A stretch of DNA of 50,938 nucleotides, from positions 1 to 50,938 of the forward strand of contig JAFTUI010000020.1 in the NCBI GenBank assembly GCA_017466345.1, written 5' to 3'. Of this stretch, positions 32,112 through 41,384 are shown one piece after another. Positions within the stretch are counted from its first letter, which is position 1. Each line of letters starts with the position of its first letter. A model generated the notes under the pieces. That model saw only the letters and a list, made by a program, of their open reading frames with translations, was not told the DNA's origin and made no database searches. This DNA comes from Tidjanibacter sp. Lineage in GTDB: Bacteria; Bacteroidota; Bacteroidia; Bacteroidales; Rikenellaceae. Position numbers and translations under genes: made by a program.

Positions 32112-32528
32112 TTATTTCGCACCGCCAAAGAGCGATGAGATGCGCCGACCGAGTACTGCTATGGCGTCCCTAAAACGGTTTTCGCCCGTCAGTGTGGTGG
32201 CATTTTCGAGGTAGCTCCAAAACTCCACACCGCACACAAACCCCGTAAAGAGGTTTGCCAAGCGCAGGTTTACAAACGGAAGCAGCAACGAGTCGAGCAT
32301 CCAAGCGAGCATTATGCCCGCCATAACGAACGAGAGTTTCCTTACCGTGCGCCATGCCTTGCGGCTCTCGAAGTGCCACTCGCAACCTGCGGCACGCACC
32401 TTCTGGCGGTCGGCAAGTATGCCGGTAACGAAATCAACAGTGATGAATGCCAATGCTATCACAAGCAGTGGTTCTACCGGAGCAAAGAACGACAGTACTC
32501 CGGCGATAAGTCCTGAAATGTACTTCAT
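32112..32528 (-). CDS. Phage holin
   Basis: A 138-residue membrane protein with a holin (phage_holin_4 / toxin-secretion type) look. It has a hydrophobic first half (ISGLIAGVLSFFAPVEPLLVIALAFITVDFVTGILADRQK, with the family VDFVTGI-type motif), a basic cytoplasmic loop, a second hydrophobic span (LSFVMAGIMLAWMLDSLLLPFV) and a basic tail. Holins make pores that release lysins or allow export. It is last in the cassette, 66 bases after the connector-like gene, with no endolysin beside it. The next downstream gene on this strand is rimP. Confidence 0.8.
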   Translation of the reverse strand: MKYISGLIAGVLSFFAPVEPLLVIALAFITVDFVTGILADRQKVRAAGCEWHFESRKAWRTVRKLSFVMAGIMLAWMLDSLLLPFVNLRLANLFTGFVCGVEFWSYLENATTLTGENRFRDAIAVLGRRISSLFGGAK

Positions 32529-32594
32529 ACGAATTGAGAATTGAGAATTGAGAGTTGAGAGTTTTTCCTATAAGCCTTATAAGCCCTATAAGCC
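32529..32594. repeat. AT-rich and TATAAGCC repeats
   Basis: AATTGAGAATTGAGAATTGAG units (32529-32556) and three TATAAGCCCTATAAGCC-type units (about 32570-32594) lie between the holin and connector-like genes. Host-type intergenic repeats are therefore present inside the phage-like cassette. Confidence 0.6.
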
Positions 32595-33065
32595 CTATAT
32601 GACCACTCCGCCAACAATGCGATGCAAACGCTGAGCGGGATTGTAGGAGGGATAGAGTTCGGGGTGGGAGGCGAGGTGGGAGGTGGCACGAGCGAGGAGT
32701 CTATCGGCATCGGCACGCATACGGACAACAGCCCTATGGAGCGTGGCGTCATCGACCACCTCGAAGCTCTCGCCCGCAAGTCTCACAACGCCTGCCGAGC
32801 CAAACCTTACTGCGAGCGTAGGCAGCAGGCGCGAGGCAACATAGAGCGCAAGAGGTTGTTTGAGGTATTCGAGGGCGAGGTTTTGGAGCACCTCATCGCC
32901 ACCATCGGCCTTCAACGCCTTGTAGAGTTCCTCGCCCAAGGCGGGGAGCAGGTAGCTCTCCTCAGCCGAGAGGATGGCGTGGGGTGGAACAGCCCCCTCT
33001 TCGAGGGTGTGGGTGGTGCCGAAGGCGAGCGAGAGCACCTCGGAGGGTGTAACAATAGTTTTCAT
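32595..33065 (-). CDS. Phage head-tail connector-like protein
   Basis: A 156-residue helical protein directly after the portal gene (4-base gap). It begins TIVTPSEVLSLAFGTTHTLEEGAVPPHAILSAEESYLLPALGEELYKAL. That pattern (a helix pair with a hydrophobic Y-L-x-P-A-L-G core) recalls head-tail connector/adaptor proteins such as the DUF6712-type proteins of Bacteroidetes phages. The ATG at 33065 is used; the frame open to 33182 overlaps the portal gene. Assignment rests mainly on size and position beside the portal. Confidence 0.6.
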   Translation of the reverse strand: MKTIVTPSEVLSLAFGTTHTLEEGAVPPHAILSAEESYLLPALGEELYKALKADGGDEVLQNLALEYLKQPLALYVASRLLPTLAVRFGSAGVVRLAGESFEVVDDATLHRAVVRMRADADRLLARATSHLASHPELYPSYNPAQRLHRIVGGVVI

Positions 33066-33069
33066 AGTT

Positions 33070-34314
33070 CTAAGCGTTGTGGGTTGAATGGTCGGATTGT
33101 TTGATTTGCGCCAAGAAGAGCTGTTGTGCAGGATCGGTGGGATCGTAGTCCAAGCCATCTGCCATACGAGCCTCCCAGACACGCATATAGTCGGGTTTGG
33201 AGCGCGAGGGCGGGCGGTTTACGATGTCGAGCGAAGAGCCATCCTCGCCCAAAATCTCGCTTATGAGCAGACGTATGGGATCGAGGAGTTCCTCCTGCTC
33301 GCCGAGGATGACGGTATTCAGAGCGACCTCCCATTCGTGCAGGATGCGCTCCGAGGAGAAGCCTGTGGCGTAGTCCAGACCGCTGATACTGCGGAACCAC
33401 GAGTGAGCAACGACAATATCGCTGAGTGACTGTTCGTGGAGCGTGGACCAATCGCCCTCGTTGGAGGCTGTGATGGGTATGAAGCGCGAGGAGTCGCCCT
33501 CGGCGCAGTCCTTGACCATAAACATCACCTGACCCGGCTTGCCCGCAAACTTGCGTTCGGCATTGCGCACAAACTCCTCAGCATCCTGCTCGTTATCCAC
33601 GCCACCATCGAGCAACATCACACCAGAGAGTTGGAAGGAGTTGTCCAGGCGCGAGATGTTCCAATTGTCGGTCTTGTAGGCAATGGTCGACACACCCATA
33701 CCTGCAATATAGGTAGGCACGCCATAGTGGGCGAACATAGGCTCGTAGTCCTTATAGTGGATGACGGAGTGGAGGTTGCCATCGGCACCCTGCTCGAAGA
33801 GAGGATAGAGTGGCAACGACACGCTATCGGAGGCGGTGTAGTGGCTCCAATCGTGGTGAAGAATGACGTGCTTGCCATCTTTGGCAAGGCGCACACGCGA
33901 GGCGTCTTGGTGGAAGAGTGCGAGGAAGGAGTGCTGCGAGTCGGTAACCACCTCCACAAAGGCGTTGCCGAAGAGGGTTTTGTCTATGGCGAGGTAGTTG
34001 AGTACCTGGCGGAGCGACTCGCCCGAAGAGTTGGCACGAGCAATAAATCCTCGTGTGCGCACAGCCTCATCTGCCACAATAAAACCCTTGCCAGAGATGT
34101 AGTCTGCCTTGTCGTTGATGATGCGGCGGTGGATGGTGGCTCGGCGGGCCAAGAGCGATAGCGCATTGGGGAAGAGATTGTCGCTACCCCATCGCCAAAA
34201 CTCGCCAGCCGACACCTGCGAAGCAGAGCCTATGGTAATAGCCACATCCAATGGCGAGGAGGCTGCGCGGGGAGAGAATATCTTGGGAGTGAATGATTTT
34301 TTATTCTTTTCCAT
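33070..34314 (-). CDS. Phage portal protein
   Basis: A 414-residue protein with the layout of HK97/SPP1-like portal proteins. It has an N-terminal segment with WRWGSDNLFPNALSLLARRATIHRRIINDKADYISGKG, then a wing region with LFGNAFVEVV, and a clip/stem region with GFSSERILHEWEVALNTVILGEQEELLDPIRLLISEILGE. The portal is the dodecameric channel through which DNA enters and leaves a capsid. Gaps are 4 bases to the connector-like gene and 85 to the preceding one. No terminase, its usual partner, is seen anywhere in the cassette. Confidence 0.8.
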   Translation of the reverse strand: MEKNKKSFTPKIFSPRAASSPLDVAITIGSASQVSAGEFWRWGSDNLFPNALSLLARRATIHRRIINDKADYISGKGFIVADEAVRTRGFIARANSSGESLRQVLNYLAIDKTLFGNAFVEVVTDSQHSFLALFHQDASRVRLAKDGKHVILHHDWSHYTASDSVSLPLYPLFEQGADGNLHSVIHYKDYEPMFAHYGVPTYIAGMGVSTIAYKTDNWNISRLDNSFQLSGVMLLDGGVDNEQDAEEFVRNAERKFAGKPGQVMFMVKDCAEGDSSRFIPITASNEGDWSTLHEQSLSDIVVAHSWFRSISGLDYATGFSSERILHEWEVALNTVILGEQEELLDPIRLLISEILGEDGSSLDIVNRPPSRSKPDYMRVWEARMADGLDYDPTDPAQQLFLAQIKQSDHSTHNA

Positions 34315-34399
34315 TAGTGGGACAAATTATTAAGCGGTTATCTTGTCGAAAAAACGTGGCAGAGAGGCGTATAAGCTTAAACCCCTCTGCCACCAAAGC

Positions 34400-34885
34400 C
34401 TACTCCTCGTAGTGGCACGCAAGGGAGCCATCCGTGGAGGAGAGAGTGAGGGTTGTAGAGGCTCTTTGCACTCGGCTTTGAGCACTGCTCAGCACCGCCA
34501 GAGAGAGCCTCAGGGGGTAGTCGGCTGCCGCCTCTGGCGAGTAGCCCACCAGCAACTTTTCGCCCTCTGGGAGCCCCACGACAGCCACCACACCGTCCAC
34601 CGAGAGCCCACGGAGTCTATCGGCCGCCTCGCGCTCTAAGCCCTGCATCCGAAAGCTGAGGTGGTGGCTAACGGTGCCGTCCGCCTCCACACGCTCCTCG
34701 AAGCAGGCGCCACCATCGGCAAAGAGCACCTCCGCAAAGTCACTCCCCTCGCGTAGTCTTAGACCCGAGAAGAGCCTTTGTGTGGAGTCGTACTCGACAG
34801 CCTCAATATCCACTGCCGACACCAAGCGGATGGACTCAACCCCTCCGAGATGTTTTGCACAAGTGATAGAAGAGCCCAACTCCAT
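34400..34885 (-). CDS. Small phage-cassette protein, unknown function
   Basis: A 161-residue beta-rich protein (alternating strands such as GSSITCAKHLGGVESIRLVSAVDIEAVEYD; HHLSFRMQGLEREAADRLRGLSVDGVVAVVGLPEGEKLLVGYS). Its start is one base from the stop codon of the capsid gene. Size and position between capsid and portal fit a capsid decoration, completion or tail-tube protein. The VVAVVGLPEGEKLLVGY stretch and acidic surface would be compatible with any of these; I do not recognise the family. Confidence 0.55.
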   Translation of the reverse strand: MELGSSITCAKHLGGVESIRLVSAVDIEAVEYDSTQRLFSGLRLREGSDFAEVLFADGGACFEERVEADGTVSHHLSFRMQGLEREAADRLRGLSVDGVVAVVGLPEGEKLLVGYSPEAAADYPLRLSLAVLSSAQSRVQRASTTLTLSSTDGSLACHYEE

Positions 34886-34886
34886 A

Positions 34887-36149
34887 CTACTTCAAGCCTT
34901 TGATTACAAACTCGCCGCCGAAGTGGCTCTTAGCGACAATCTCGTAGTGATCGACCTGCTGGTCGCCATCGTAGGAGATGCTACCCGCAGACACAGCCAT
35001 AGGCTCTTTCTCCACAACAACCTCGCCCGAAGGATTGATGAGGTTAAGGTAGAACGACTCCACCCAGCAGAGCTGCTCGCCAGCGCCCTCTACACCTGCA
35101 ATCATCGAGAATTGGTTCTCGCTAATCTGGCTCTCCAAGCCTACCAAGCCCACACCGAATGCCACAGTAACCAACTCAGGGAAGAGGAAGTCGCAACCTG
35201 CCATAAAGATAGCCCTCTGGCGGTTCTCCATCACATCGGGGTTGTACCACATACGCACCTCAGTGCCAGGGAAGTCGCTCGTATTGACCGCAAGTGCGAG
35301 GTTGCGGCGGTCGGTGAGGAATGCAAACGAGGTGGGCATATCGCCTGCCACCTTCGAGGCGTAGCCACTCAGGCGGAGGTCAATCACGGGGATGCCACGA
35401 TAGTAGAGAGCCTCCCTGCCGCTCTGTTTGGCGAGATAGGCGGCCTCGATAGCCACACCATCCAACTCCTCCTCGTAGGCATTGTAGACATCGGTGCTCA
35501 CGAAGAACGCCAACTGCCCCTCGGAGCGCAAAGCCCTGAGTTGGTCGGTGGAGTTGTCCCAGAGTTGCTTCAAGAGTGCCTCAGCCCAACCCTCTTTGTG
35601 GTTGGGGATGTAGCCCAAGCGCACCATTGCATTCTCGCCCGATACGGGATCTTCGGTGCAGTCGTCATCCATAAAGCGTTTGAGGAAACCATCGAAGGTG
35701 CCGAGCACACCCGAAGAGCGCAAGGTGTTGCCATACCACATAGTGGAGCGGATACTCTCGGCAATAGAAGCACGGAAGAGATTGGTCTCAGCCTCTTCGA
35801 GTTCGGTGCCCGAAAGGTCCTCGAAGTTCACATCCGAGCGTGCGGCAATAAGCTCAAAGACGGTCGAGAAGTAGTCCTCGGCGGAGTATGCCATTTCGGC
35901 TTTCACTTTGCTCAGGTTGATGGTCTTTTGCAGTTTGGTTGCGGGCTCACCACCGCTCCAACCGCTCGAAGTGTATTTGCGCAGGATGTCGCCATTGCGC
36001 TTCCAGAAGTGGAGAGTGGTGGGTACGGGGGTGTTGTACATCACCTTGATGCCGAGCTCTTCGGCATTCGCACCGGTGAGCATAGGGCGGAAGAAGATGG
36101 TGTCGAGGTTCTGTCCTTCGTAGGATTTGATTTGTTCGATTTTGCTCAT
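34887..36149 (-). CDS. Phage major capsid protein (HK97-like fold probable)
   Basis: A 420-residue protein, normal for a major capsid protein. It shows an extended N-terminal arm, YSAEDYFSTVFELIAARSDVNFEDLSGTELEEAETNLFRASIAESIRSTMWYGN (spine-helix type), and then a P-domain-like stretch with an AFFVSTDVYNAYEEEL strand-helix and GIPVIDLRL. It ends with a beta-rich domain. It follows the ClpP-like protease gene with a 48-base gap, the standard protease-capsid order. No long scaffold delta domain is visible at its N terminus. The HK97 assignment is by context and pattern. Confidence 0.75.
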   Translation of the reverse strand: MSKIEQIKSYEGQNLDTIFFRPMLTGANAEELGIKVMYNTPVPTTLHFWKRNGDILRKYTSSGWSGGEPATKLQKTINLSKVKAEMAYSAEDYFSTVFELIAARSDVNFEDLSGTELEEAETNLFRASIAESIRSTMWYGNTLRSSGVLGTFDGFLKRFMDDDCTEDPVSGENAMVRLGYIPNHKEGWAEALLKQLWDNSTDQLRALRSEGQLAFFVSTDVYNAYEEELDGVAIEAAYLAKQSGREALYYRGIPVIDLRLSGYASKVAGDMPTSFAFLTDRRNLALAVNTSDFPGTEVRMWYNPDVMENRQRAIFMAGCDFLFPELVTVAFGVGLVGLESQISENQFSMIAGVEGAGEQLCWVESFYLNLINPSGEVVVEKEPMAVSAGSISYDGDQQVDHYEIVAKSHFGGEFVIKGLK

Positions 36150-36197
36150 AGTTTTTGGTTGTTTTTTGTGTAGTTAGAAAAATGTGATTGATTGCGC

Positions 36198-37163
36198 CTA
36201 TTTACCGCTACGGGCGAGGGCTGCACGCATACCCTCCACATCGGAGAGGTAGGCACTCTGGTTGGGTGTGAGGGCGGTAGTACCACTTGGGGCGGGATCT
36301 TCGCACTCTTTGGTTGTGGTCTTGCGGGCTGTGTGGAGCCTCGAAGGGGGAATGGGTGGAGCACCCACCTCCTCGCGCTCTGCCAGCGAGGGTTGTACCT
36401 TGTCAATCGAAGCCGAAGGGGTGGCGGCAGGTGGAGTCGTAGGGGCGATACCCAACCCCACGAGCATCCTATTCCAAGCCGCTGCCAAACGCTCCGAAAG
36501 AGGCTTTGGGGGCAGTGGTGTCAGTCCCAATGCTCTCACTTGCGAGCGTGCGTCATCGGTGATGGGCGAGGAGGCTATGATGCGGTCGGCAAGACCAGCC
36601 GCAACACACTCCTCTGGCGAGAGCCACACACCCTTGCCACTGTTGCGGTTCATCAGCTCCCTAAACTCCTCGACAGCACGCCCTGAGGCGAGAGCGTAAA
36701 TCTCCGCAAGCCTCTCATCGCTCTTATCGAGGAGCTCTTTGGTTGCCAAGAGCGAGTGGGTGTTACCCTCAACAGCACTCTCGCAGCAGTGAATAAGGTA
36801 GAGTGCATTTGCCGAGATCTCCCTGCACCCCTCCGATGCCGCTTGGGCGATGATGGTCGCTGCCGAAGCAACGTAGCCGTAGCAACGAGTGATGACCTCC
36901 ACACCGAGTGAGCGAGCCTCGTCATAGATGAGCAGCGCATCGGCAAGGCACCCTCCTGTGGAGCGGATGTTGAGCACCAAGCGTTCGATTTTGCCCTCGG
37001 CTTGGATGTCGCCGAGCACCTCCACAAATCGCTCATAGGTCGCCACCCTATTACCACACTCCTCTTCGCCAAACTGCTCCCACTCTGGGGTGCCCAAGAC
37101 GCCATCTATGTCGATGATGGCGACTCCTGCCGAGGATGATAATTTTTTCTTTGTTTCTTCCAT
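36198..37163 (-). CDS. ClpP-like prohead protease with C-terminal extension
   Basis: A 321-residue protein. Residues about 12-200 form a ClpP/S49-like serine protease fold: NIRSTGGCLADALLIYDEARS (oxyanion-forming GG), catalytic Ser S100 in GYVASAATII and catalytic His H125 in LYLIHCC. The Pro/Ser/Ala-rich tail (about 225-321) may serve as scaffold, as in phages whose protease and scaffold are fused. It would mature capsid proteins. The stop codon of the 90-residue HTH gene is 3 bases before its start, and the capsid gene follows. The active-site residues are intact, so loss of function is not apparent. Confidence 0.8.
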   Translation of the reverse strand: MEETKKKLSSSAGVAIIDIDGVLGTPEWEQFGEEECGNRVATYERFVEVLGDIQAEGKIERLVLNIRSTGGCLADALLIYDEARSLGVEVITRCYGYVASAATIIAQAASEGCREISANALYLIHCCESAVEGNTHSLLATKELLDKSDERLAEIYALASGRAVEEFRELMNRNSGKGVWLSPEECVAAGLADRIIASSPITDDARSQVRALGLTPLPPKPLSERLAAAWNRMLVGLGIAPTTPPAATPSASIDKVQPSLAEREEVGAPPIPPSRLHTARKTTTKECEDPAPSGTTALTPNQSAYLSDVEGMRAALARSGK

Positions 37164-37166
37164 AGA

Positions 37167-37439
37167 CTAATTCTTTGTGTTGTGATAAATGTAGGTGCGG
37201 ATGATAGACTCGGAGCATCCCAACTTCTCCGCAATCATTTTAATGGCAGTTCTCTTCTTCATACCACCATCCGTCAGTTTCTTGACTAATGTCCTTGCCA
37301 AAAATGCAAGGCACTTGCGCTTGGAGAGGAGGCCCAACGAGATAATTTTCTTGATGGTCCTCAGCGAGGACAACCCCTTGCAGCGGTTTACCAACAACTC
37401 GCAAGCCCTCTCCATATTCTTGTTTTCAATATCTTCCAT
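37167..37439 (-). CDS. Small basic helical protein with HTH-like C terminus
   Basis: A 90-residue, strongly basic protein with many Lys (KKIISLGLLSKRK; TLVKKLTDGGMKKRT) and a C-terminal AIKMIAEKLGCSESIIRTYIYHN that reads as a helix-turn-helix. It looks like a small DNA-binding protein, either a regulator or a remnant small-terminase-like protein. Its Lys/Ile-rich composition differs from the Arg/Glu/Ala-rich neighbours. It lies 39 bases after the tail-hub-like gene and 3 bases before the protease gene. Confidence 0.55.
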   Translation of the reverse strand: MEDIENKNMERACELLVNRCKGLSSLRTIKKIISLGLLSKRKCLAFLARTLVKKLTDGGMKKRTAIKMIAEKLGCSESIIRTYIYHNTKN

Positions 37440-37478
37440 AGTGTTTGGTTTCTGTTTTCGTAGACAAAAAAAATCAAA

Positions 37479-39830
37479 TTATACCGTCACAAAGAGCATC
37501 CTTACCGAAGGCTCGTTGGGATTGTAGTCGCAAATCCTCTCCAAACGACACAGCACCCTTTCGCCATCGACTCGCAGCATATAGAGCGAGCGGAAATCGA
37601 AGCCAATACCACTCGGATTGACAATCCACTCCACCTCTGCGGCAAGTAGTCGCACCCTGACACTCAGTCGGCGCGAGTGGTTGAGTGTGTCAACCCTGTC
37701 GTCCCACCACTTATGGAGCCCCTCTACCCCATCCCTATCCTCGAAGAGCAACGAGTGGGGAGCACCTCCGAGCGAGCCATCATCGAAGAACGTTAGGAGC
37801 GGATAGCGTTTATCGCCACTGCGAGGGTAGTCCCACAACTCGCCATCGGGCAGGTCACACATCCCCCTGAACGAGATGATTTTTGTGGGGAAATTGAGGT
37901 TTTGGACCGTTTCGTGCCCACGCTTCGAGTTGCTCTTGGTGGAGATGAGCGATGCCGAGGGTGCCAAGGCAACACCTCCCCTCTCCGATAGGGAGGCAAC
38001 AAAGAGGTTGTTTTCAAGGCTCCTTGCTCCATCCTTTGCAAAGAGGTTGTAGATGGGGGCACTCCACTCGCCAAACCTCTCTCCCGTCTGCCCCTTCCAC
38101 TCCTCGACAGCTTCATCGCCCAAGCGGTAGGCAAGGCGCAGGGTGCGCGAGGTGTCATCGCCAAGCTCCTCCACGACTATCGGCACCGAAGTATCTATGC
38201 GCTCCGTAAGATCCACCACCTCCCTATTGTAGAAGTTACAGCGTGGCTCTATGTACGCTACTTTGTACATCGGGTCGGTCAGCACGCACAAATCGAAGAG
38301 TCTTTGCAGGGCTGCCAGCAACTCCTCTCCCGTATATGGCAGGTCGGCAATGTCGCCACCTGTGAGGGTGCCTATGAGGGGAGGATGGGGATAGAAAACG
38401 GGCTGGATGCTGCATCCGGCAAGTACCGTAACCTCCATATCCTCCTCGCCACCGTAGAAGTAGAAGTCATCGAAATAGGCGGGGTTATCGGGCGAGCAGC
38501 TCACGGCCTGAGAGCGCACCGTCAGTTCCAACTCTGTCGTGCCCCTTTCGGTAACGCAACCGTCATAGATAGCCCAATCCACGAGCGCAGAGAACATCTC
38601 GCCATCTAACTCCAACTCCAAGCGAAGATTGCGCAAGGGGTTGGTGGTGGTTATCTGGAAGGGCGTGTAGCTCTCGGTGGTGGAGAGGAGTCTAATGGGC
38701 TGCACGCTACCATCCGACAACTGCTCGTCTGCGACAAGGAAGTAGGTCGCACCCTCTACCCTCTCGAAGAGCATCAGGTTGTAGAGATAATTCACACCGA
38801 GCGTCTCGTTGCGGAAGTCGTGGAAGTTGTTGACGAGGGGCACGCTCTCGCTATCGGTCAGACTGAATTTCACACTACTGAGTCCGATCAGTTCGGTGCG
38901 GCTCTTGATGCGGTACTCGGTACGCCAGCGAAGGTGGTAGTCGAATGCCACCTGAACGGGGCGTGTAGGTGTGAAGCAGATGCGCCCTGAGGACTCCTCT
39001 AAGCCAAAACAGCCCGCATTGAAAGCCCCTTCCACAGAGCCATCGGGCACCTCCACAAGGTTGCCGATGGTGTTGTAGTATTTGATTGGGCTGGCAAATA
39101 CCCTTCCGAAGTAGTGGGCCTTGACGGTTGGCGAGTCCTCACTACGCACCGCCTTGAAGTCCATCGCCGACTTCCACCCTTCGCTATTTATCTCTCTCCA
39201 TCTGCCACTCATATGGAGCGAGTTGAAAAAGTTGGAACCCATAAAACTCGAACTTACGGCATAGCCTGCCTCGGCGAACATCGCCCTGAGGAGTGAGCCA
39301 AGATGGATGAAGGGATGATAGTTTTCTGGCAGAAGTCTCGCGCGGTGGCCCACCGCATCGCTACCCGCACCTCGGCATACGGGCAGAAAGCGCACCATCT
39401 CTCCCGCTGTTGTCCAGCCCTTGCGGAGCGAAGTGGAGGTTATCTCCCGACTCCAACTGCTCATCAGCGAGGCGATGGTGGTTTGTTTGAGGGTTTTGAG
39501 CCACTCTGCCCTCTCGGAGACAATCTCAAAGCAGTAGTAACCATCGTCACCAATTGCGGAGGCTGTCAGGTGGAGCCTTCCCTCGAAGAGTATGGAGCCA
39601 TCCACCTCCACCCTCGCGGTGTGCTCCTCTTGGTTGAACATTGCCTTTGAGTGGGGATGGGAGCAGTCGCCCATCAGTTGTCGGTTGCGGAGCGTGGCCG
39701 GTATGGTAATGGTCTTGGAGCAGACCACCTCCTCTACCCCATCGAGGGATGAGGGTACAGCCGCAGATATGGAGAGGTCGTTGGTGGGATCCCAATCTGC
39801 TGGTTGATTGTCAATATAGAGTTCGGTCAT
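37479..39830 (-). CDS. Large phage tail-hub/baseplate-like protein
   Basis: A 783-residue protein without signal peptide. The start (TELYIDNQPADWDPTNDLSISAAVPSSLDGVEEVV) and the following KTITIPATLRNRQLMGDCSH fit the opening of phage tail-tip/hub proteins (gp27-like). It has several beta-sandwich-like stretches, LHLTASAIGDDGYYCFEIV, and aromatic-rich strands up to RVLCRLERICDYNP. This would place it at the tail end of a phage or tail-like particle. It is the largest gene of the cassette. Function by pattern and context only; a carbohydrate-binding fibre is an alternative. Confidence 0.5.
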   Translation of the reverse strand: MTELYIDNQPADWDPTNDLSISAAVPSSLDGVEEVVCSKTITIPATLRNRQLMGDCSHPHSKAMFNQEEHTARVEVDGSILFEGRLHLTASAIGDDGYYCFEIVSERAEWLKTLKQTTIASLMSSWSREITSTSLRKGWTTAGEMVRFLPVCRGAGSDAVGHRARLLPENYHPFIHLGSLLRAMFAEAGYAVSSSFMGSNFFNSLHMSGRWREINSEGWKSAMDFKAVRSEDSPTVKAHYFGRVFASPIKYYNTIGNLVEVPDGSVEGAFNAGCFGLEESSGRICFTPTRPVQVAFDYHLRWRTEYRIKSRTELIGLSSVKFSLTDSESVPLVNNFHDFRNETLGVNYLYNLMLFERVEGATYFLVADEQLSDGSVQPIRLLSTTESYTPFQITTTNPLRNLRLELELDGEMFSALVDWAIYDGCVTERGTTELELTVRSQAVSCSPDNPAYFDDFYFYGGEEDMEVTVLAGCSIQPVFYPHPPLIGTLTGGDIADLPYTGEELLAALQRLFDLCVLTDPMYKVAYIEPRCNFYNREVVDLTERIDTSVPIVVEELGDDTSRTLRLAYRLGDEAVEEWKGQTGERFGEWSAPIYNLFAKDGARSLENNLFVASLSERGGVALAPSASLISTKSNSKRGHETVQNLNFPTKIISFRGMCDLPDGELWDYPRSGDKRYPLLTFFDDGSLGGAPHSLLFEDRDGVEGLHKWWDDRVDTLNHSRRLSVRVRLLAAEVEWIVNPSGIGFDFRSLYMLRVDGERVLCRLERICDYNPNEPSVRMLFVTV

Positions 39831-39878
39831 AGGTTGAAGTTTTGTCGGTTAAGTATCTTTCGGTACATTTAGGGGTGG

Positions 39879-40868
39879 CTACTTGCTCACACAAAGACTC
39901 TTGGCAGAGCGAACAGAGAGGGTTATGCGCCTTGCACCCTCGCCTTCCAAGAGGAGCTCGGAGGAGAGCAGGATTTGGGGCTCGATGCCCTCGTTGCTAC
40001 AAATCCACAGGTTAGCAGAGGAGAACAGCTCGGAGAGTTGGTCGGTTTGGGCTTGGGAGAGCACTTCGCTCTGCAAAGTTTGCTCCACCCACGACTCCGC
40101 ACTCACAACCTCTCGTCCCAAAGATGAGGCGCACTCCACAGAGGAGCGGTGGAGTCTCCTTTCTGCAAGTCGGAAGGTGTGGTAGCTGATGCCACCCTCG
40201 CGGTTGAGCCACGCCAAGCGCACATCGGAGTGGTGGGGACTCCGCAGGCGATATTTTATCAGGGCGCACAATCTGCCGCCGATGGCAAAACGCAGCTCGA
40301 AGGCGGAGGAGTCGGCAGCGAGAGGTGCACGCGAGAGAATGTCGTCTGCCGACAGTGCAAAGAGCACCACCCCTTTGGTGGTTGCGGTAAAACTACCCAA
40401 CATCTGCGACCTACCACCAGCTGACACGTTGGCTACTATGGTCGCTCCCTCCGAGAGGCAGAATGCCACCTCATCACATTCGCCGGGTGCTATGGTGCGC
40501 CACTGCTCCCAGCTGCCCATAATGGAGTTGGCGGTGTGGTTGTGGTGTGAGGAGGTAAAGAGTATCATCGGGGTAAGCCCCTCGCCACCATCGTACTCCA
40601 ACGAGAGCATCGCATCCCTACCCTCAGGACGTAGGAACCCACTTTGGGTGATGTTGGCAAGCGGTGCGGGCGAGAGCATTCGGAGCAGGATAGATTTGGG
40701 CGATGTGTCGATACTATTGCAGCCAACATAGCGGCGTATGGCCACCATCTCGTCATTGGCATTGTAGTAAATCAACTCTTGGAGAGAGGTCTCATCTACA
40801 TCCACAAACGAGAAGAGATTGTCGGCGTGTGCCGAAGCAAAATCGGCAGGGGATTTGGTCAATTCCAT
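39879..40868 (-). CDS. Phage-cassette structural protein, unknown
   Basis: A 329-residue beta-rich protein without signal peptide or membrane helix. It opens with ELTKSPADFASAHADNLFSFVDVDETSLQELIYYNANDEMVAIRRYVG. A central strand-rich region (SFTATTKGVVLFALSADDILSRAPLAADSSAFELRFAIGG) is followed by SPHHSDVRLAWLNREGGISYHTFRLAERR, and it ends with ARRITLSVRSAKSLCVSK. Location between the 136-residue and hub-like genes suggests a tail or fibre component. No named family recognised. Confidence 0.5.
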   Translation of the reverse strand: MELTKSPADFASAHADNLFSFVDVDETSLQELIYYNANDEMVAIRRYVGCNSIDTSPKSILLRMLSPAPLANITQSGFLRPEGRDAMLSLEYDGGEGLTPMILFTSSHHNHTANSIMGSWEQWRTIAPGECDEVAFCLSEGATIVANVSAGGRSQMLGSFTATTKGVVLFALSADDILSRAPLAADSSAFELRFAIGGRLCALIKYRLRSPHHSDVRLAWLNREGGISYHTFRLAERRLHRSSVECASSLGREVVSAESWVEQTLQSEVLSQAQTDQLSELFSSANLWICSNEGIEPQILLSSELLLEGEGARRITLSVRSAKSLCVSK

Positions 40869-40894
40869 AGTTCATTAATTTAACTTACAACTTG

Positions 40895-41305
40895 TTATAA
40901 ACTACACTCCACGCTCTCCACTTCGGCACTCAGCGACACAGCCACTTCGCCCGCAATGGTCAGCACCTCGCCTATGGGAGCAATCTCCGAGATGGCAACC
41001 GAGAAGATGTGGGGCTCGGAGCTAAGGAGCGAGCAAAACTTCTCGGCGTGGGTAGCAAGTGCGGCTATCGCCTCGGCGCGTTCTTGGTCGCTCAACACAT
41101 TTTTGCTCAAAAACTTAACAGACAGGCGACAGGTGGTGGGGCTGCCGGCATTGCCACTCGGAGAGATGATGGTGGGAGGGGCAAAGAGGGCTATTGGGAA
41201 ACCCTCGCGGTGGAGCGTTGTGTGCAGCCCTTCGGGGAGCGTTGGATGGTAGCCAAGCGAGATGGCAACCTCGAATGCCGAGTTCAAAACGGAGCTATAA
41301 TTCAT
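40895..41305 (-). CDS. Small phage-cassette protein, tail-completion-like
   Basis: A 136-residue protein, the first gene of the cassette. The ATG at 41305 is used; the longer frame runs over the promoter. It has a mixed alpha/beta pattern (NSAFEVAISLGYHPTLPEGL, TCRLSVKFLSKNVLSDQERAEAIAALATHAEKFCSLL, IGEVLTIAGEVAVSLSAEVESVE). Size and pattern loosely fit tail-terminator or tail-completion proteins. A TACTTTTG promoter element lies about 48-55 bases upstream. Confidence 0.5.
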   Translation of the reverse strand: MNYSSVLNSAFEVAISLGYHPTLPEGLHTTLHREGFPIALFAPPTIISPSGNAGSPTTCRLSVKFLSKNVLSDQERAEAIAALATHAEKFCSLLSSEPHIFSVAISEIAPIGEVLTIAGEVAVSLSAEVESVECSL

Positions 41306-41352
41306 AGTAGGCAGTTGTTGAAAGGGTTTATATTTATGGTTCAATTTCTGAA

Positions 41353-41384
41353 CAAAAGTAGTATCTGAGCACCCCTTTGTCAAT
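41353..41384 (-). promoter_or_regulatory. Bacteroidetes-type promoter for the phage-like cassette
   Basis: TACTTTTG (41353-41360, minus strand) matches TAnnTTTG; ATTG (41381-41384) lies 20 bases upstream at the -33 position. The start codon of the first cassette gene is about 48 bases downstream. It is the type of promoter used by host housekeeping genes here. Confidence 0.6.

Follow-up and report, generated by a model that had tools for sequence, protein, structure and literature searches.

Comparison with described gene transfer agents

The nearest functional parallel to the element analysed here, a phage-like gene cassette of Tidjanibacter sp. (Bacteroidales, Rikenellaceae), is FpGTA, a gene transfer agent (GTA) of Faecalibacterium prausnitzii, with which it was compared by description using the available text of PMC12946183. 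The cassette is located on contig JAFTUI010000020.1 of assembly GCA_017466345.1, which was analysed over its whole length of 50,938 nucleotides (the window) and is one of 30 contigs of a 1.82 Mb genome. Both elements belong to gut commensals and consist of two unlinked operons with head, portal, terminase, holin and endolysin genes; FpGTA I was present in all twelve Faecalibacterium genomes its authors examined. They differ in phylum and in layout: FpGTA I holds the terminase and the head genes and FpGTA II the tail and lysis genes, whereas in the Rikenellaceae head genes, tail-type genes and holin stand together, and terminase, muramidase and repressor stand apart. According to the same text, particles and protected DNA were demonstrated for FpGTA; the Rikenellaceae element, described here from its genes, is filed as GTA-like rather than as a proven GTA.

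The RcGTA-type agents of the Rhodobacterales, likewise compared by description (available text of PMC9662315), are also endogenized and vertically inherited, with trees congruent to those of their hosts. Three of the six GTA features given there are recognisable at gene level in the Rikenellaceae: structural proteins of Caudoviricete origin according to profile searches; full endogenization, often at several loci, here seen as two loci among host genes with no isolate phage carrying the capsid; and vertical inheritance with co-diversification. The other three features concern the particles themselves: a cargo of mostly random host DNA, a head that cannot hold all of the agent's own genes, and delivery of the DNA to other cells. 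RcGTA production needs the activator GafA (available text of PMC6363796), in contrast to the phage-type repressor and the single operator at both loci found here. For Rikenellaceae or Alistipes, no GTA report was found in the open-licence literature, preprints excluded, and the available text of PMC12946183 does not mention Alistipes.

The Bacteroides fragilis phages B40-8 and vB_BfrS_UZM3 carry terminases which are among the nearest named ones (45-50% identity in the 20 listed matches); unlike the present element, they are free phages of 45-46 kb. In a tree with three phages, the 29 Rikenellaceae terminases group in a single clade to which none of the three belongs (support 100/100). PBSX of Bacillus subtilis is similar in being a conserved defective phage, and the window portal resembles the PBSX portal family TIGR01540, below the cut-off of that family. 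PBSX occupies a single locus and its gene order is unlike that of the Rikenellaceae cassette.

A probable domesticated phage at two loci

With a probability of roughly 0.72, the element is a vertically inherited, domesticated phage of the Rikenellaceae, which is split in two loci and works as a GTA-type particle. Among the options offered by the initial annotation of the window, a domesticated GTA-like particle is the best supported, being family-wide, vertically inherited and under purifying selection. The ten-gene phage-like cassette described there is real and consists of ten intact open reading frames (ORFs), all on the minus strand (41305 to 32112). Its statement that packaging and integration genes are lacking holds for the ten cassette proteins, among which profile searches recognised no integrase, terminase, lysin or repressor; the supposedly missing terminase, lysin and repressor lie at a co-regulated second locus. 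A wider claim is made tentatively, at slightly less than even odds: the Rikenellaceae, including Alistipes, would possess an old, family-wide, functional GTA with one LexA-like switch for two loci, a terminase-endolysin fusion tying packaging to lysis in one branch and a link to comEC in some Alistipes, which would join donor and recipient functions. It would be the first in Bacteroidota according to the searches made.

Second locus

The genome-wide terminase search proposed earlier was successful: a PF03237 terminase is present in the same genome at the start of contig C17 and at the end of contig C26. The 5,171 compared bases are identical and represent a duplicated contig end of the assembly. 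Locus 2, as opposed to the cassette (locus 1), spans G000:C17:357-3707, and the two loci combined amount to about 12.5 kb. Both were found on one contig in other genomes, among them G005 and G017. The 20 stretches fetched around the terminase (two of them the own-genome duplicate) contain a conserved trio of repressor, a protein of ~122 amino acids (AA; p122) and large terminase (phrog_38, 4e-84), while in one truncated stretch (L071) the terminase alone is visible.

The repressor (~228 AA, helix-turn-helix and S24-peptidase domains, phrog_4 1e-34) is transcribed divergently from p122 and terminase. Ser139 and Lys182 are conserved in 13 of 13 sequences and Ala103-Gly104 in 12 of 13; since the Ser-Lys pair and the Ala-Gly site are kept, self-cleavage of this CI/LexA-like repressor is likely. 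In the terminase, K48, D149, D150, D310, D313, E366, D442 and D445 are invariant (12/12), residues which correspond to the terminase motifs. All 18 members of p122 were without a PHROG match, and its position alone leads us to guess that it is the small terminase. PF04466 gave no match above the cut-off in 37 genomes, and integrase or replication genes were found neither among the ten cassette proteins nor among eight scanned proteins of the own-genome stretch (L060).

In the Tidjanibacter genome, the terminase and an N-acetylmuramidase form one continuous reading frame (L060:1659-3707), of which residues 503-675 of 682 match PF11860 (1.2e-65). Seven genomes have this fusion uninterrupted, as single ORFs in G000, G005 and G019-G022 and as a 704-AA frame plus adjacent matches in G023, whereas in G013, G014 and G017 the muramidase has a gene of its own on the far side of the repressor. 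Behind the holin, 34 of 148 loci encode another type of endolysin (phrog_873, 3e-44), some genomes counting twice and none of the loci being at the rimP site. The lysis enzyme is thus retained, with its type exchanged.

Two candidates of another terminase family, phrog_2, were rejected. The weak own-genome match (E 3e-4 on a 324-AA ORF) was discarded due to similar ORFs in cassette-free genomes, and stronger matches on longer frames in G016 and G007 probably represent separate prophages.

Shared operator

A palindrome of 15 bp, RTTCARWWWYTGAAY, is located upstream of the cassette (Table 1) and, at locus 2, between repressor and p122. In the 24 genomes of the genus, 22 exact sites were found (one being the duplicated own contig end), originating from 13 genomes. 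Twenty-one of these fall into the two control regions, the remaining one (G016) lying inside the repressor gene; the reversed pattern, used as control, did not occur in the 24 genomes. Within the window by itself the operator lacks significance, with 11 of 100 shuffles also containing it when up to one mismatch is allowed; its weight derives from the genome-wide counts. With a matrix of 18 locus 2 sites, a significant site (shuffle p ≤ 0.01) was detected ahead of 11 of 22 cassettes; these are 11 of the 16 from the genus and none of the six from other genera. All seven rimP-site cassettes with upstream sequence, including the window, were significant. In G017 and G014, where the first cassette gene was undetected, the operator is found 488-489 bp before p329, as in the window.

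The host-type promoter previously reported ahead of the cassette is readable in the sequence as TTGACA plus TACTTTTG, the latter touching the operator; the Bacteroidota promoter consensus is TTGAC...TAnnTTTG. In the rimP-site cassettes such a pair precedes and touches the operator. At locus 2, most operator sites are followed by a TAnnTTTG box.

Distribution of capsid and terminase

The capsid was found in 33 of 61 genomes, namely the own genome, 22 of 23 other members of the genus and 10 of 13 from other Rikenellaceae genera, and in none of the 24 genomes of other families in this sample. The lone genus genome without capsid is 59% complete and also without terminase and nusA. In a larger draw from the family (completeness ≥ 80%), 190 of 201 genomes have the capsid, nearly always as a single copy, and 107 of the 111 better genomes do. 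An order-wide draw gave a capsid match in 6 of 197 genomes: three belong to the genus of the window, one, from another family, matches in part (E 3e-41), and two are distant (~1e-9 and ~1e-11). Scanning named genome contigs with the capsid profile resulted in 240 relatives, of which 80 were kept; their titles read Tidjanibacter, Alistipes, Rikenella, Millionella, Rikenellaceae and, in two cases, 'Bacteroidales bacterium', many being from ruminant or bird gut.

Of 23 genus genomes, the own one counted among them, 22 have the PF03237 terminase, compared to 0 of 14 genomes of other families. This pattern equals that of the capsid and was counted in favour of two loci belonging to one element. In the family draw, 187 of 201 genomes have the terminase; both genes are present in 183, the capsid only in 7, the terminase only in 4 and neither in 7 (Fisher's exact test, p = 4e-7, which is optimistic because of genome relatedness). 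The seven genomes with neither are every drawn member of three genera (g10, g12, g44).

Among 50,697 phage records, the capsid occurs once, in an unannotated 7.4-kb faecal contig bearing the same cassette. Capsid peptide patterns found no relative in IMG/VR, and alignment of the portal gave 17 contigs, seven at 59-67% with the same cassette order and ten at 25-35%.

Two 'Bacteriophage sp.' records without annotation, MT838736 (L092) and MT838805 (L232), both from human faeces in Mexico, look like parts of Alistipes-type chromosomes that include the cassette. If derived from purified particles, they would be consistent with packaged host DNA; the available text of PMC8361208, searched for a link to the particle virome described there, did not establish one.

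Selection and inheritance

The ratio of non-synonymous to synonymous substitutions (dN/dS), a check proposed with the initial annotation, was determined between species by the Nei-Gojobori method for pairs with dS < 1.8, many of which are near saturation, so that the values are rough. Medians at locus 1 were 0.15 for holin, 0.16 for portal, 0.24 for capsid, 0.30 for ClpP, 0.36 for p783 and 0.40 for DUF6712, and at locus 2 they were 0.07 for repressor, 0.17 for terminase and 0.18 for muramidase. The host references nusA and rimP had 0.08 and 0.10. Internal stops (≥ 60% coverage) were absent from 29 portal, 29 ClpP, 24 terminase and 21 repressor sequences and were found in 1 of 32 capsid and 1 of 28 p783 sequences (both L043) and in 2 of 22 p329 sequences (one gene in two overlapping loci); frameshifts would escape this count, and some genomes were counted twice through overlapping loci.

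As host reference for inheritance a single gene, nusA, was used, with 17-19 genomes that all belong to one genus. Distances correlate with r = 0.83 for portal and terminase, 0.70 for nusA and portal and 0.61 for nusA and terminase (19 genomes, Mantel p at the floor of 0.0005). Between the trees built from locus 1, from locus 2 and from nusA (17 genomes), 8-9 of 14 splits agree, compared to ~0.3 by permutation, and 0 of 2000 permutations reach this number. Both loci follow the host tree and each other and are under purifying selection.

Proposed mechanism

In the proposed course of events, the repressor would bind on top of or next to the TAnnTTTG box and thereby silence the promoters of the two loci. 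Once it cleaves itself, upon DNA damage with a RecA-type signal or upon other stress, both loci would be switched on in some cells. Heads would then assemble, mature via the ClpP protease and be filled with chromosomal DNA by the terminase. Holin and muramidase would lyse the producer cell, and particles would reach related cells, in which the DNA would be taken up and recombined. Packaging of DNA is likely, because the terminase motif residues are invariant and the portal and head genes are constrained. Filling with the element's own genome is unlikely and chromosomal DNA is the expected cargo, given that no replication, excision or integrase gene was seen at the two loci and that the terminase is unlinked from the capsid.

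If working, the element would provide a major gut family with a built-in route of DNA exchange which prophage finders would miss, as it is split and integrase-free. It would extend GTAs to Bacteroidota and offer a simple switch of one operator and one repressor for studying GTA control. The terminase-muramidase raises the question of a protein being packaging motor and cell-wall hydrolase, and the search logic, i.e., a terminase sharing phyletic pattern and operator with a structural cassette, could reveal further cases.

Alternative explanations

Several observations weigh against a functional GTA. The support comes from sequence, and particles, packaged DNA and transfer are predictions. Evolution is fast in p329, p161 and p122 (median dN/dS 0.56, 0.49 and 0.46, the last reaching up to 1.1), and neither a small terminase nor a tape measure was recognised. 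The own-genome locus 2 is on contigs other than that of the window, and the draft assembly has a contamination of 4%. In eleven genomes capsid or terminase occurs without the other, for which assembly gaps are possible, and terminase matches are weaker in G105 (6e-34) and in G083, G102, G104 and G176 (~1e-111 to 1e-126), which may be split genes or terminases of other phages. The exact operator is present in only 13 of 24 genus genomes. A matrix site (p ≤ 0.01) is missing in 11 of 22 cassettes: five of the 16 from the genus (L026, L028, L029, L032, L033) and all six from other genera (L040, L041, L043, L046, L047, L048), and the significant sites of L021 and L023 are at other distances than the rest. 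The gut survey of PMC12946183, in its available text, assigns GTA-type packaging to Ruminococcaceae, Oscillospiraceae and Christensenellaceae (23 of 25 events) and names none for Rikenellaceae, a family among the most abundant in total DNA of this survey.

The main rival is a killer particle resembling PBSX or a tailocin. It would be conserved, of phage origin and damage-induced, would package host DNA or none, would deliver nothing and would be selected for killing relatives or lysing the producer. We regard this as unlikely. The parts found would fit it equally, p329 is the fastest evolving protein, as expected for parts contacting other cells, and the available text of PMC12946183 voices the same doubt about FpGTA. 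In contrast, constraint is stronger on terminase, portal and capsid, which a head-less killer would not need, than on the tail-type genes. This separates the element from head-less killers; PBSX keeps its head, and constraint on head genes is therefore compatible with a PBSX-like particle. DNA delivery, as by a GTA, and killing alone, as by PBSX, would be the main alternatives.

Much less probable, with only a slight chance of being correct, is an ordinary prophage of very wide occurrence or a slowly decaying remnant. Repressor and packaging genes are of phage type, a few frames have internal stops, and terminase matches occur in 2341 of 50,697 phage records, the best being ~50% identical to B40-8-like phages of Bacteroides fragilis. 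The capsid, however, matches just the one record that is itself a contig of the same cassette. The initial annotation would have accepted a prophage remnant if the cassette were confined to single strains and flanked by attachment repeats, or if it contained a terminase or integrase. Instead, 190 of 201 genomes carry the capsid, nearly always as a single copy, direct repeats of ≥ 16 nt bracketing the cassette were not found, and integrase and attachment repeats, as expected of a temperate prophage, were not detected at the places scanned. The two loci, purifying selection and host-congruent trees also argue for domestication.

A capsid-forming satellite or nanocompartment, using the packaging of a helper or packaging proteins, would agree with the window alone, which is without terminase, and is equally improbable: the same genomes have a co-evolving, co-regulated terminase of their own, and portal and lysis genes are present. 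Encapsulin-type nanocompartments are capsids without portal or terminase, whereas the cassette encodes a portal.

Cassette genes and genomic context

Profile searches of the ten proteins confirmed the earlier calls of holin, portal, capsid and ClpP-like protease and additionally recognised DUF6712, leaving five without a curated family (Table 1). The protease retains Ser in YVASAA and His in LIH by sequence reading, which we take to be the catalytic residues. By position, p783 is probably a tail tip or hub and the DUF6712 protein a head-tail connector. Mean column identity of the portal is 70% across 15 family members. PDB profile searches with capsid, portal, p783 and p122 gave no significant match. 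The structural model of p329 is of an Ig-Ig-tube type (Ig, immunoglobulin), resembling proteins of Nonlabens, Flavobacterium and Polaribacter phages, and suggests some tail on the particle. Its PDB Foldseek list, chiefly antibody and T-cell-receptor chains, was disregarded as common Ig folds.

Table 1. Features of the cassette and its control region in the window.
Feature	Position	Strand	Remarks
Promoter-like pair, Bacteroidota type	41353..41383	-	TTGACA (41383-41378) and TACTTTTG (41360-41353); sequence reading
Candidate operator, shared	41339..41353	.	GTTCAGAAATTGAAC (minus strand), pattern RTTCARWWWYTGAAY; also in repressor/terminase locus
p136	40895..41305	-	first cassette gene; no family; relatives' genes at equivalent place in many genomes
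p329	39879..40868	-	two Ig-like domains and C-terminal tail-tube-type domain; like uncharacterised Bacteroidota phage proteins
p783	37479..39830	-	large, family-conserved; no family or PDB relative; fold without assignment
p90	37167..37439	-	small; weak helix-turn-helix match (best E 0.0017, below cut-off)
ClpP-type head maturation protease	36198..37163	-	PF00574 4.9e-25; phrog_94 4.9e-32
Major capsid protein	34887..36149	-	phrog_1623 5.3e-7
p161	34400..34885	-	no family; between capsid and portal genes
Portal protein	33070..34314	-	phrog_11226 1.8e-16; TIGR01540 2.2e-17, below TIGR01540 cut-off
DUF6712 protein	32595..33065	-	PF20459 1.9e-12; start codon read from sequence
Host TCAATT-type intergenic repeat	32532..32558	-	within cassette
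Holin	32112..32528	-	PF05105 1.6e-10; phrog_199 5e-7

The gene order p136, p329, p783, (p121), (p90), ClpP, capsid, p161, portal, DUF6712, holin is kept in relatives, with one or more small genes undetected or beyond the contig end at many loci. The reported adjacency to rimP is correct for the window, where the cassette adjoins rimP-nusA, and the same site was found in 11 of 32 fetched loci; elsewhere the neighbours are others, e.g., the genes of RNA polymerase beta and beta' in L044. At seven loci (L045/L171, which are one genome, L049, L144, L156, L158 and L162), whose titles or placement point to Rikenella, Millionella or uncultured relatives, the terminase is ≤ ~2.5 kb from ClpP; accordingly, the element is unsplit in one branch and split in that of the window.

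The capsid has ~405-433 AA in the rimP-site clade and some others versus ~323-338 AA in many relatives; the extra C-terminal part (window residues ~331-420) may be a decoration domain. G021 contains on another contig (G021:C22, L050) a second, more divergent cassette copy with a capsid 44% identical, perhaps a contamination or a second element.

A ComEC-type competence gene is located shortly downstream on the same strand in eight Alistipes-titled loci of 148 searched (L137, L149, L150, L152, L154, L157, L166, L172) and in the faecal contig MT838805 (L232:1775-3253). Its identity was confirmed by Pfam PF03772 in L154, L157 and L232. Uptake of RcGTA requires ComEC.

The host intergenic repeat claimed to lie inside the cassette is indeed present (Table 1). 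Repeats of this TCAATT type (7-bp unit) have 31 matches in the window (overlaps counted, ≤ 2 mismatches) versus 0 in shuffles and are spread throughout the window.

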